Both the position numbers and the translations under genes were made by a program. From contig NZ_JPKG01000018.1 in the NCBI RefSeq assembly GCF_000735605.1, forward strand, positions 1 to 64,000: DNA of 64,000 bases, in the 5' to 3' direction. Numbering within the stretch: the first letter of the stretch is position 1; each line of letters starts with the position of its first letter. This DNA comes from Allobosea sp. LC85. Lineage in GTDB: Bacteria > Pseudomonadota > Alphaproteobacteria > Rhizobiales > Beijerinckiaceae. The notes under the pieces were generated by a model. It did no database searches. It was given only the letters and a program-made list of their open reading frames with translations, and was not told the DNA's origin. Positions 10,115 through 14,014 of this stretch are shown in pieces.

Positions 10115-10762
10115 TCAGGCCCCTCCCTGCCAGATTTTAATCCAGTCGGCGGGGTAGATCAGCATGATGATGTTGAGGGCCAGATTGTCACGGATCAGGT
10201 AGCCGACCACCAGCTCCATGCCGAGCGCAAGCGAAATGGTGAGCCAGACGGGCAGGACGCGGGCGAGAAGAAAGCCCACGATCATCGCCGCGATATCGGA
10301 GACTGAATTGATGATGCTGTCGCCGGTATAGCCAAGCGAGATCGTCATTTCCCGGTAGCGATCGATGATGGCCGGGCTGTTCTCGGCGATTTCCCAGGCG
10401 TTCTCGATCAGGATCGCGAGGAGAAGCGCCTGCCCGAACGAGATGGGCAGACCGGTCAGCCGGCGGATCGACCAGAACAGGCCGTAGAAGAGGAAGCCAT
10501 GGATGATGTGGGAGAAGGTGTACCAGTCGGCAATATGCTGGGAGTTCTCCGGCGACATGACGACGCCGTGCCAGGGCTTGACGTAGCCGCATTTGCAGAT
10601 CGGCTCTCGGCCCGTGGCAAACAGGATCAGGGCAGCCGCGGCAATCATCAGAGCTGCGACGAGGACGATCGTGCCCGGCTTGAACCGCCCCTGCGCCCAG
10701 GCTTCCCGGCTCTCACCTTCAGCGCGAATATCACGCGTGGCGGCTATCTGGTCGAACACCAT
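10115..10762 (-). CDS. UPF0314 (DUF2585) membrane protein within the glc operon
   Basis: 215 residues from the ATG at 10762, which overlaps the glcE stop as TGATG; a TTG one codon earlier is an alternative. It has about four membrane helices and conserved polar motifs: [27 protein letters not shown] and [18 protein letters not shown]. These match UPF0314/DUF2585, a family of unknown function. The paired His and Trp residues near membrane edges suggest a metal or cofactor site, which is only a guess. Its position between glcE and glcF, with tight coupling on both sides, argues for a role with glycolate oxidase. Confidence 0.85.
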
Positions 10763-11949
10763 CAAATCCCCGCATACATCCGGCCGGGCTCGAAGATCCC
10801 GGCCGGGTCGAAGCTGCTCTTGATTCCGGCGGTGACCCGCATCAGCGGCTCGGCCAGTGGTTCGAAGACCGGCACGACAGCGCGAACCGCGATGGGCGCG
10901 CGCACCAGGGTCGCGTGACCGCCGAGCGGCCTGATCGCAGCGCGGATCGCGGCGGCTCCAGCGTCGTCTTCGGCGGACACCGCGAGCCAGACCAGACCGC
11001 CACCCCAGTCATAGAACCAGCGTGCCTGCGGCAGGGCCTCGGCGATCGCAGCCGTGGCACGCGGCCCCCTGGACGGAGCAAGCGAGAGCCGCCAGACGGC
11101 TTCATGGCTGCCGGCGAAGAACGTCGCGTCCCGCACGGAATGCCATAACTCCTGCGAGGCAGCCCCCTCGATCAGGTCCGGCCTGCCGTACTGGCTCAGC
11201 AATTCGCCCAGCGCGCCGGCGCGATAGTCGACCGAGCTCGCGAAATTCTCGAGTCTGAGCAGCGTACGGGCCTGGTCGCCCCCGATGCCAGCCGGCAAAT
11301 GCGCCGCCGCCATCGGCTCGAAGGGCGAGCCGAGCGCAGTCGAAAGCAGAGCGACCGCCGCCTCGTCGGCAAGGCCGTGCCAGGCCAGCGTGACCACGCA
11401 TTCCGGCGCAGGCAGTACGCGGAAGGTGACTTCGGTCAGGAAGCCAAGCGTGCCGTGGGCGCCGCTCACCAGCTTGACCAGATCGAGCCCGGTGACGTTC
11501 TTCATGACCCGGCCGCCGGACTTGATCGCCTCGCCCCGGCCATTGATCAGCCGGATGCCGATCAGCGAGTCGCGAGCCGCGCCAGCGTTGATCCGGCGCG
11601 GACCGGAGATGTTTCCGGCGGCGACCGCACCGATCGTCGGCTCGCCCTCTGTCCCCAGCAGCGCACGGTGATCCATCGGCTCGAAGGGCAGCATCTGGCC
11701 GCGGTCGACCAGCGTCCGCTGGATCTCCGCAAGCGGCGTGCCGGCCCTGGCTCCAATCACCATCTCGGACGGCTCGTAAAGCGTGATACCGGTCAGCCCC
11801 GCGCTGGAGATGGTGCTCACGACCTGCGTCGGGCGCCCCAAGCCACTACGCGTACCACCGCCGCGAATGGTGACGGGCGTGCCGCTGGCAGCGACGGAGG
11901 CAACGACGGCGCAGGCCTGGGCTTCCGTGGTGGGGGTGTGAATGGTCAT
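10762..11949 (-). CDS. glcE: Glycolate oxidase FAD-binding subunit
   Basis: 395 residues with the PCMH-type FAD-binding fold: [15 protein letters not shown], then [13 protein letters not shown], then [29 protein letters not shown]. GlcE is the second flavin-type subunit of glycolate dehydrogenase and is shorter than GlcD. Its start lies 14 bases from the edge of a 148-bp repeat, so its leader has been replaced by inserted sequence. No good Shine-Dalgarno sequence is visible, apart from a weak GGGGTA. Confidence 0.93.
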
Positions 11950-11962
11950 TGAAGTACCCCAG

Positions 11963-12110
11963 CGTCATTCCGGGGCTTCGCGAAGCGAAGAGCCCGGAAC
12001 CCAGAAACACCGCCGGAGCAAGGCATGGCATGATGGCCGCGGCGATCAATTCGGCTCGGCCCAAGGCTCTGGGTTTCGGGCTCGTTGCTGCGCAACGCCC
12101 CGGAATGACG
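11963..12110. repeat. 148-bp inverted-arm repeat, copy A (REPIN-like)
   Basis: Outer arms CGTCATTCCGGGGC (11963-11976) and GCCCCGGAATGACG (12097-12110) are perfectly complementary; each conserved arm extends to about 44 bases. The left arm has the hairpin CTTCGC-GAA-GCGAAG (11976-11990). The right arm has CGTTGC-TGC-GCAACG (12083-12097). The centre, about 60 bases, is unrelated to that of copy B. It ends 8 bases from the GIY-YIG stop codon and 14 bases from the glcE start. Confidence 0.9.
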
Positions 12111-12118
12111 GCGGCGCC

Positions 12119-12406
12119 TTATCGTGCAAGCAACGGGTAGAGGTCTCCCCAGAGTGGATTGGCCTCCTCGATGAGCCTTATCTTCCAATCGCGCCGCCAC
12201 TTCTTGATATCTTTCTCGCGCTCGATTGCTTCGACCGCAGTCGGGCACTCCTCGTACCAAACCAGCCGATCGACGCCGTACTTCCGCGAAAAACCAGGCA
12301 ATGCCTTGCTCTCGTACTCGTATACTCGGCGAGCGAGATCGTTCGTCACGCCGAGATAGAGCGTGCCGTGATAGCGGCTCGCGAGAAGGTAGACGTGATA
12401 GGGCAA
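12119..12406 (-). CDS. Small GIY-YIG nuclease-superfamily protein framed by repeats
   Basis: 95 residues, starting at TTG (12404-12406) with GGAGG 7 bases upstream. The whole protein is one GIY-YIG domain: V-Y-L-L at 5-8, Y-L-G at 17-19, T-N-D-L-A-R-R with the catalytic Arg near 26, and A-I-E-R-E-K-x-I-K-K-W-R with the metal-binding Glu near 62-64. It belongs with the YhbQ-like single-domain proteins, often misnamed UvrC. GIY-YIG enzymes cut DNA with one divalent metal ion. The gene fills the gap between two 148-bp repeats and interrupts glcD-glcE on the same strand. Its own DNA substrate is unknown; the repeats are the obvious candidate. Confidence 0.88.
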   Translation of the reverse strand: MPYHVYLLASRYHGTLYLGVTNDLARRVYEYESKALPGFSRKYGVDRLVWYEECPTAVEAIEREKDIKKWRRDWKIRLIEEANPLWGDLYPLLAR

Positions 12407-12419
12407 AGCGAGCCTCCAC

Positions 12420-12567
12420 CGTCATTCCGGGGCTTCGCGAGGCGAAGAGCCCGGAACCCAGAAGCTCAGTTTGTACCGTAGGTGCCTCCCGTCCGTCCGC
12501 ACTCAGTCCTGATCCACCTGTGATTCTGGGTTCCGGGCTCACTGCTGCGCAGTGCCCCGGAATGACG
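12420..12567. repeat. 148-bp inverted-arm repeat, copy B (REPIN-like)
   Basis: Same length and outer arms as copy A (12420-12433 and 12554-12567, perfectly complementary). The left arm differs from copy A by one base, in the hairpin loop (GAG for GAA, 12439-12441). The right-arm hairpin is CACTGC-TGC-GCAGTG (12540-12554): relative to copy A two base pairs are changed on both sides, so pairing is kept. The centre is unrelated to copy A. It starts 13 bases upstream of the GIY-YIG start and ends 10 bases from the glcD stop. Confidence 0.9.
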
Positions 12568-12577
12568 TTGAGGGGCA

Positions 12578-14014
12578 TCACGCGGCCACCCTGCCATCGA
12601 GCGGAAAGACCTTGGCCGGGTTCAGCAGCCACTCGCCGTCGAAGACCGACCGCACCCGCATCTGCTGATTGAGGTCGGCTTCGGTGAATTGCACGCGCAT
12701 CAGATCGCGCTTCTCGATGCCGACGCCGTGTTCGCCTGTGAGACAGCCGCCCACCTCGACGCAGAGCTTGAGGATGTCGTTGCCGGCATCCTCGGCCTTC
12801 CGCGCCTCGACCGGGTCGTTGCAATTGTAGAGGATCAGCGGGTGGAGATTGCCGTCGCCGGCATGGAAGACATTGGCGACGCGCAGTCCATAGCCCTTGA
12901 CGATCTCGGCCATGCGCTGCAGCACAAAGGGCAGTTGCCCGGTCGGGATCGTGCCATCCATGCAGATGTAATCGGCGATCCGGCCTGTCGCGCCGAAGGC
13001 CGATTTGCGCCCCTTCCAGATCGCGGCGGTCTCCATCGCCGACTTGCTTTCCTTGACCGTCTTGACGCCGTGCTCGCGCGCGATTGCGACGATGCGGGCG
13101 AGCTGGGCGTCCATTTCCTCGTCCGAGCCCTCGACCTCGATGATCAGCAGCGCCTCGACATCCATTGGGTAGCCGGCCTTGGCAAAGGCCTCGCAGATCT
13201 CGATCGCCGGCTTGTCCATGAACTCCATCGCGACGGGGATGATACCGGCGCCGATGATGGCGGCAACGGCAGCGCCTGCCTGCTCGCTGCTCGGGAAGCC
13301 GAACAGCACGGGACGTGCGCCCTCAGCCGAGCGCAGGATGCGCACGGTCGCTTCGGTGACAATGCCGAGCTGGCCTTCCGAACCGACGATCAGGCCAAGC
13401 AGGTCGAGGCCTGGCGCATCGAGATGGGCGCCACCGACCTCGACGATCGAGCCATCGAGCATCACCAGGGTCACACCGAGCACATTGTTGGTGGTGACGC
13501 CGTATTTCAGGCAATGCGCACCGCCGGAATTCATGCCGATATTGCCGCCTATCGAGCAGGCGAGCTGTGAGGACGGGTCGGGCGCATAGAAAAAGCCCTC
13601 GGACATCACGGCGTCGGTGACGGCCAGATTGGTGACGCCGGCCTGCACCCGGGCGGCGCGGTTGGCATAGTCGATCTCGAGGATGCGATTCATCTTCGAG
13701 ACACCGATGACGACGGCATCCTCCTGCGGGATCGCACCACCGGCGAGCGAAGTGCCTGCGCCCCGCGGCACGACGGGAACGCCCTGCTCGCCGCAATAGC
13801 GCAGCACCGCCGCGACCTCCTGCGTCGTCGAGGGCAGCACGACCGCCAGCGGCATGCGGCGATAGGCGGTAAGCGCGTCCGTCTCATAGGGCCGGCGCTC
13901 GTCATCGGAGGTGATCAGAGCCTCGGGTGCCACCAGCCCGGCAAGCCCGGCGATGATCGCATCGCGGCGCGCCAGGATGTCCGCGCGCGGCGCGGGAAAG
14001 GCAATGGCGCTCAT
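12578..14014 (-). CDS. glcD: Glycolate oxidase catalytic FAD subunit
   Basis: 478 residues. The PCMH FAD-binding domain shows V-V-P-R-G-A-G-T-S-L-A-G-G, S-Q-L-A-C-S-I-G-G-N-I-G-M-N-S-G-G-A-H and G-L-I-V-G-S-E-G-Q-L-G-I-V-T-E. The FAD-oxidase C-terminal domain carries F-H-A-G-D-G-N-L-H-P and G-C-L-T-G-E-H-G-V-G. These are diagnostic of GlcD, which oxidises glycolate (and often D-lactate) to the 2-oxo acid. GAGGAGGAG precedes the ATG. It is the first gene of the glc operon and diverges from a LysR gene, the likely regulator. Confidence 0.95.
   Translation of the reverse strand: MSAIAFPAPRADILARRDAIIAGLAGLVAPEALITSDDERRPYETDALTAYRRMPLAVVLPSTTQEVAAVLRYCGEQGVPVVPRGAGTSLAGGAIPQEDAVVIGVSKMNRILEIDYANRAARVQAGVTNLAVTDAVMSEGFFYAPDPSSQLACSIGGNIGMNSGGAHCLKYGVTTNNVLGVTLVMLDGSIVEVGGAHLDAPGLDLLGLIVGSEGQLGIVTEATVRILRSAEGARPVLFGFPSSEQAGAAVAAIIGAGIIPVAMEFMDKPAIEICEAFAKAGYPMDVEALLIIEVEGSDEEMDAQLARIVAIAREHGVKTVKESKSAMETAAIWKGRKSAFGATGRIADYICMDGTIPTGQLPFVLQRMAEIVKGYGLRVANVFHAGDGNLHPLILYNCNDPVEARKAEDAGNDILKLCVEVGGCLTGEHGVGIEKRDLMRVQFTEADLNQQMRVRSVFDGEWLLNPAKVFPLDGRVAA

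Follow-up and report, generated by a model that had tools for sequence, protein, structure and literature searches.

REPINs are moved by RAYT transposases, which belong to the Y1 HUH type. CGTC REPs form one of the two REP superfamilies in the 2013 survey by Di Nocera et al. and include dRS3 of Neisseria as well as RPE-4/-6 of Rickettsia; in the available parts of this survey, no associated transposase gene is reported for them, and an early loss of the enzyme is one of the explanations offered (PMC3733652). The same parts mention odd loops for CGTC-1 of Bradyrhizobium, and the term "GIY-YIG" has 0 occurrences in the main text as available (PMC3733652). Among the matches listed for the open PMC literature, GIY-YIG genes are not linked to REP, REPIN, CGTC or dRS3 repeats; this covers open PMC only, and an earlier description is possible in subscription papers, preprints or supplements. 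One table, in the accessible part of its source, names RayT and a GIY-YIG gene separately and draws no link between them (PMC9465073).

Here, we analyzed a 605-bp unit (11963..12567) in the window, i.e. the whole 64,000-nucleotide stretch of DNA under study, which is composed of a REPIN (A), a GIY-YIG nuclease gene and a second REPIN (B). REPIN A (11963..12110) and REPIN B (12420..12567) are 148 bp long each, and both consist of inverted arms (11963-12005 and 12068-12110 in A, 12420-12462 and 12525-12567 in B) with the CGTC ends facing outward. A and B are 96% identical over 48 nt in their left arms and 88% identical over 43 nt in their right arms, and a comparison of the two centres gave no repeat match between them. 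As single-stranded DNA, both elements fold better than 200/200 shuffles (z −7.55 for A and −8.48 for B). Between them lies the nuclease gene (12119..12406, minus strand) with its 95 codons, identified by PF01541 (E 3.1e-14), alignment and model; only 8 and 13 bp separate it from the REPINs. It starts with TTG, and a GGAGG read from the sequence as its likely ribosome-binding site (12413..12417, minus strand) is found 6 bases upstream of the start and 2 bases outside the REPIN end. The neighbours on the same strand are two operon genes which, following the naming of the initial annotation, we take to be glcD (upstream; 12578..14014, minus) and glcE (downstream; 10762..11949, minus). These results bear out the initial annotation, which had described two 148-bp elements with near-identical arms and unrelated centres that frame a 95-codon GIY-YIG gene with 8 and 13 bases to spare, inserted between two operon genes on the operon strand.

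Judged by sequence, the repeats of the unit resemble CGTC REPs. All four arms begin with CGTC, the tag lying at the outer end, and all four carry a CCA tail. They read CGTC-ATTCCGGG...CCCGGAAC-CCA, in which stem position 2 pairs and position 1 is A-C; arms of Bradyrhizobium ending in GGAATCCA pair at both stem positions, the first pair being A-T. The outer stem of the window arms comprises about 8-9 bp, while the inner part is longer than the 4-5-bp CGTC loop and contains a variable hairpin of its own.

The encoded protein matches PF01541 with the conserved Y, Y-x-G, R, E and N of GIY-YIG nucleases, and Y6, Y17, G19, R27, E64 and N83 are invariant in an alignment of 39 rows. None of the NCBIfam models matches it at E 0.001. 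Six glc-site homologues (15 pairs) gave a median dN/dS of about 0.10; the copy in the window matched with one extra codon and stands outside this set. By these comparisons, the catalytic site is intact and under constraint. The predicted model (pLDDT 91.7) shows one domain filling the 95 amino acids. Its nearest fold is UPF0213 (1zg2; E 4e-4, TM 0.57), followed by Slx1-Slx4 (6seh; probability 1.00, E 0.014) and 1ywl, with UvrC and I-TevI lower down. Interrupted copies account for 4/80 homologues from named genomes, as for a dispensable element. In these four (L054, L080, L081 and L082), unit-type arms or near variants are still close by.

In the 6.56-Mb genome of origin, a strict arm pattern has five occurrences. 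Of these, 3/5 are inside the unit, a concentration beyond chance and other than a scatter of arms with no link to the nuclease; the other two form one geneless REPIN (C32:37052-37192). The fourth arm of the unit (12068-12110) is one base off the strict pattern, and a looser, generic pattern adds a single variant at C40. Repeat-rich congeners carry up to 234 arms, most of them away from the nuclease gene, as is expected of dispersed copies. PF01541 has three matches in the genome of origin, namely the unit gene, a uvrC-like gene (C10) with no unit-type arm within its 3.2-kb locus, and a second small nuclease gene (L001, C59:194590-194859), which is flanked by a different repeat, TCATTGCGAG...GCAATCCAG. 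The RAYT-type Y1 domain (PF01797) gave 0 matches in this genome, in agreement with the initial view that the GIY-YIG nuclease is the only enzyme present.

At one operon junction, genomes either have the unit as a whole or lack it cleanly. GlcD was found in 60/61 genomes of the genus (genome of origin included), and among the 30 junctions read from these, 14 are cleanly empty, 15 are occupied by gene and repeats, and one (L182) is a repeat remnant that keeps a degenerate arm. The gene without repeats was seen in 0/30 junctions read; in L009, from a named genome, the downstream REPIN is missing. Nine of the 15 occupied junctions hold an arm-gene-arm form of about 413-432 bp (form S) and six, including the window, a REPIN-gene-REPIN form (form D). 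The two forms have diverged, yet are found at one junction, and on the tree each of them groups as a single clade. In the 14 empty junctions, the stop of glcD overlaps with the start of glcE (GTGA), and an insertion duplicating those bases therefore keeps both stop and start. In the nearest kin by GlcD (99%), G349 and G353, the site is cleanly empty. Their flanks align gaplessly to the genome of origin with 92-94% identity on both sides, and the unit has a TGA (3 bp) at each side: the left-hand copy, assigned by alignment to the empty kin, is the glcD stop (12578..12580, minus) and the right-hand copy lies at the glcE start (11946..11948, minus), within ATGA here and GTGA in the 14 empty junctions. 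Gapless flanks and the TGA on both sides therefore make the difference a single precise event, which comprises 629 bp and 3 duplicated bases. G349 and G353 contain zero unit-type arms, and the geneless C32 REPIN is also missing from them, which fits a unit that first arrived and then dispersed once, loss in the kin being the alternative. For geneless REPINs, a comparison of 1.57 Mb of four congeners (28 REPINs, glc-site included; 13 comparisons read) gave no readable target duplications because intergenic DNA is too diverged.

Across the phylum, genes of the nuclease family lie physically next to CGTC-type REPs, a pairing that is well supported. Inverted repeats scoring above p99 of 270 control placements enclose 64/82 nuclease loci, comprising two from the genome of origin and 80 from named genomes; the latter were kept from at least 84 matches to peptide patterns of the unit protein and therefore lean to close relatives. 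Order-wide, we analyzed 69 loci drawn from matches in 182 genomes, i.e. the 29 best-scoring (own locus removed) and 40 picked across families with flanks unseen. The inverted-repeat score exceeded 32 in 47/69 and every control in 43/69 (518 same-locus placements; p99 = 33, maximum 39). Based on a motif rule (GTC[AT]T and an 8-bp stem re-pairing within 46 nt, one mismatch allowed, tail free), hairpins were detected on both sides in 42/69 loci of the order sample, on one side in 12 and on neither in 15, which means that homologues mostly do have flanking repeats; the 15/69 loci without hairpin by this rule count against the dedicated-partner model. In other orders and classes of the phylum, the corresponding numbers were 13/20, 6 and 1 (the newly found loci minus three of the same order; 6 from the same class, 14 from other classes), in the named genomes 53/80, 21 and 6, and in the 14 occupied glc junctions besides the window 12/14, 2 and 0. 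Both-sided hairpins occurred in 4/1316 control placements, which were random positions within the same loci. CCA, which is outside the motif rule, follows 339/406 arms beside GIY genes. Arms vary greatly across lineages, and the order GTCAT-stem-loop-stem-CCA is kept in many.

At one conserved Bradyrhizobium site (L016 and L018), the flank is the same but the nuclease gene points in opposite directions, which suggests inversion or repeated insertion. In other classes of the phylum, the homologues L209, L213, L216 and L221 are flanked by repeats close to GTCATTCCCGCGAANGCGGGAATCCA, which we take to resemble dRS3. L086 and L087, from records titled Flavobacteriales and Tangfeifania, lie beside other palindromes (GTCACTCCGGGCTTGACCCGGAGTC; TCATTCCGAGGAAGCGAAGCGACGAGGAATC), and the pairing may therefore extend beyond the phylum.

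Within the genus, the repeat variants differ from one nuclease clade to the next. In a tree computed for 184 nucleases, stem type changes 49 times over 161 labelled rows compared to at least 70 times (mean 76) in 500 shuffles; this tree (fasttree) is based on few columns with most forks weak, and the shuffles do not control for host. A host-controlled comparison was made in one genus with 77 nuclease loci clustered by protein (60 picked non-glc loci, 16 of the glc clade and L001), of which 66 were compared for arms, as 11 of clade 1 have arms failing the stem rule. Arm similarity had a median of 0.86 for the same clade in different genomes (373 pairs) versus 0.22 for different clades in the same genome (45 pairs). 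For 65/66 loci, the arm of highest similarity among the other genomes came from the same clade (11.7 expected). After removal of syntenic pairs, the nearest arm was same-clade in 29/32 (5.3 expected), a result to which only clades 3 and 5 contribute (pair medians 1.0 and 0.51). The clade of the window has ATTCCGGGGC..GAGCCCGGAAC arms and the other glc clade ATTCCGGGGC..GAACCCGGAAC; further clade arms are ATGGTCGCCCTTGTGGCGACCAT and relatives, ATGCTCGGGCTTGACCCGAGCAT with the tail CTC, and ATCCCGTGCGCG.. with the tail CGC. The large clade 5 is mixed, with two arm kinds (ATTCCGGACAAGC/ATTCCGGGCG and RTCCCGGGC types), and counts against the pattern. Clade 1, with eleven members including the C59 gene L001, fails the 8-bp rule and has a TCATTGCGAG-type repeat in every printed member. 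Clades 1, 3 and 5 occupy 7, 3 and 4 contexts, respectively; four multi-locus clades are each at one conserved site, and the gene itself therefore moves rarely.

The genome of origin also contains four GTCATGGTCGGG or GTCATGGCCGGG REPs (C6:547549, C17:125790, C40:156349 and C55:58381). They resemble those of nuclease clade 3; this genome gave no gene of that clade, and the four REPs are possible relics.

Repeat number in the genus follows the glc-clade nuclease. Across 61 genomes (genome of origin counted), the median was 82 arms with this nuclease (23 genomes) and 15.5 without (38 genomes; p 3e-6), and 11/11 arm-free genomes lack it, eight of which have another nuclease of the family. The 23 genomes were assigned from score and position; they include G301, where the nuclease lies on a different contig than glcD with the site not proven, and G302, whose copy has a stop. 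Presence of any nuclease of the family was not significantly related to arm number in the genus (p 0.087), nor was a Y1 transposase (p 0.34). PF01797 matches were found in 6/61 genus genomes, and the Y1-free ones include those with 234, 194, 160 and 158 arms. A RAYT moving the repeats in trans is accordingly disfavoured in the genus, Y1 being absent from 55/61 genomes. Nuclease-negative genus genomes keeping arms are G312 (37), G319 (55), G321 (35), G331 (35) and G341 (36), and G071 (73), G195 (52) and G109 (52) also have many arms with no family nuclease detected; such genomes speak against the dedicated-partner model. Loss after spread would be an easy answer for such repeat-rich genomes; in E. 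coli, according to the accessible part of one study, genomes without RAYT still keep REPINs (PMC8049555). Among 297 genomes of the order, at least 20 arms were counted in 44/182 nuclease-positive versus 5/115 negative genomes (Fisher p 2e-6), using one generic arm pattern that covers part of the arm types. As the genomes are related, unstratified p values are optimistic: the order-wide link between gene and arms gave p 0.0024 when stratified by family and p 0.35 when stratified by genus, a level at which having the gene is no predictor of arm number; this, too, speaks against the dedicated-partner model.

For a match between dispersed REPINs and the nuclease clade of their own genome, the evidence consists of counts. 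We had also considered a GAG versus GAA arm variant that might separate the two glc forms. In form S, G308 has GAA in 10/10 arms, three arms of other type set aside, while in form D G325 has 8 GAG, 2 GAA and 2 other, and G336 has 20 GAG, 1 GAA and 3 other plus 2 arms of other type. However, G355 (D; 9 GAG, 8 GAA, 1 other) as well as G302 and G332 (both S, with many GAG) break this split, and the mixed variant was therefore dropped as evidence.

On balance, we lean towards reading the unit as the source copy of a REP/REPIN system in which the GIY-YIG nuclease, instead of a RAYT, would serve as the dedicated enzyme. Most likely, to go by the sequences, the nuclease recognises its cognate REPINs, and probably it also mobilises them. 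It would recognise the folded REP (GTC tag, stem and CCA tail) in a single-stranded or cruciform REPIN and nick at the hairpin base, and nicking would release REPINs or copy them into new sites. The gene with its flanking REPs would then be the autonomous form, and geneless REPINs its non-autonomous passengers. The dedicated-partner reading of the initial annotation is supported; the "self-spreading" of the REP system proposed there stands as a hypothesis.

I-TevI-type GIY-YIG enzymes home, and a homing endonuclease would cut unoccupied alleles such as glcD/glcE and spread by repair from the occupied allele, with the REPs as recognition sequence or mere flanking hairpins. Such an enzyme would account for the one fixed site that many congeners share while others, in between, have empty alleles (14 empty, 15 occupied and 1 remnant of 30) and for each of the two occupied forms being one clade on the tree. 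However, homing by itself leaves the higher genome-wide arm number with the glc-clade nuclease unexplained, and the several contexts within single clades (clades 1, 3 and 5) speak against it; the gapless alignment of the insertion flanks to the empty kin may do so as well, and we regard homing as rather unlikely. That the arms are instead the substrate of a host nuclease, which would resolve REP cruciforms and protect replication, owe its place next to the substrate to regulation or history and leave the spread of REPINs to other means, would agree with the strong folding of both REPINs, with Slx1, a branched-DNA nuclease, among the nearest folds, and with the purifying selection on the nuclease. 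Repeat specificity is not required of a protective enzyme, but the clades have repeat variants of their own, and the presence of the unit is patchy with clean absence of the whole; we therefore consider this explanation improbable. Homing or cruciform processing alone would explain the relation of arm number to the glc-clade nuclease less simply than the source-copy reading.

The pairing could also be passive, REPs inserting near many small genes with the nuclease as a bystander, or with RAYTs mobilising them in trans. Intergenic space commonly holds REPs, as the available parts of the survey state (PMC3733652). Yet random placements at the same loci are so rarely flanked on both sides, the nearest arm is so regularly from the same nuclease clade, and Y1_Tnp is so often absent and so unrelated to arm number that we give this account hardly any weight. 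The GIY-YIG nuclease is a strong candidate for the partner that a large class of bacterial repeats has been missing. For the wider proposal, in which a stand-alone GIY-YIG family would be the dedicated mobiliser of CGTC REPs and counterpart of RAYT, with clades that co-evolve with their hairpins, copy these through genomes and explain the classical orphan repeats too, we see the chances as close to even, tipping just in its favour. Should the nuclease indeed mobilise these repeats, DNA mobility would have a new kind of engine, namely a stand-alone GIY-YIG domain of some 95 residues that reads folded hairpins.

Compared to known systems, the unit shares with REPIN-RAYT the paired inverted hairpin-forming REPs, the variable centre and the dispersed geneless copies. 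Further shared features are an enzyme gene flanked by repeats, conserved sites and more repeats with the enzyme, as described for E. coli in the accessible part of the source (PMC8049555). The enzyme of REPIN-RAYT is a Y1 HUH tyrosine transposase with the tag GTAG, whereas here it is an unrelated GIY-YIG protein in a genome with no Y1 match, the tag is GTC, several nuclease clades occur per genome, and we infer the mobilisation. GIY-YIG homing endonucleases (I-TevI, I-BmoI) have the catalytic domain and the coexistence of occupied and empty alleles in common with the unit, but differ from its 95-amino-acid, single-domain protein with no intron noted and with dispersed palindromic repeats. The small GIY-YIG proteins of UPF0213 (1zg2, 1ywl) are the nearest solved sequences and folds and similar in size. 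Finally, CGTC REPs share the CGTC/TGTC tag, the CCA tail, the head-to-head dimers and the occurrence mainly in Alphaproteobacteria; their first stem pair is A-T as published but A-C in the window arms, and they carry a CCA tail, whereas some nuclease clades here have CTC or CGC tails. While no associated transposase gene is reported for CGTC REPs as published, a nuclease gene partner is identified here, which may have a transposase role, and with a nuclease beside the repeats and clade-specific arms, the question of their missing transposase becomes testable.
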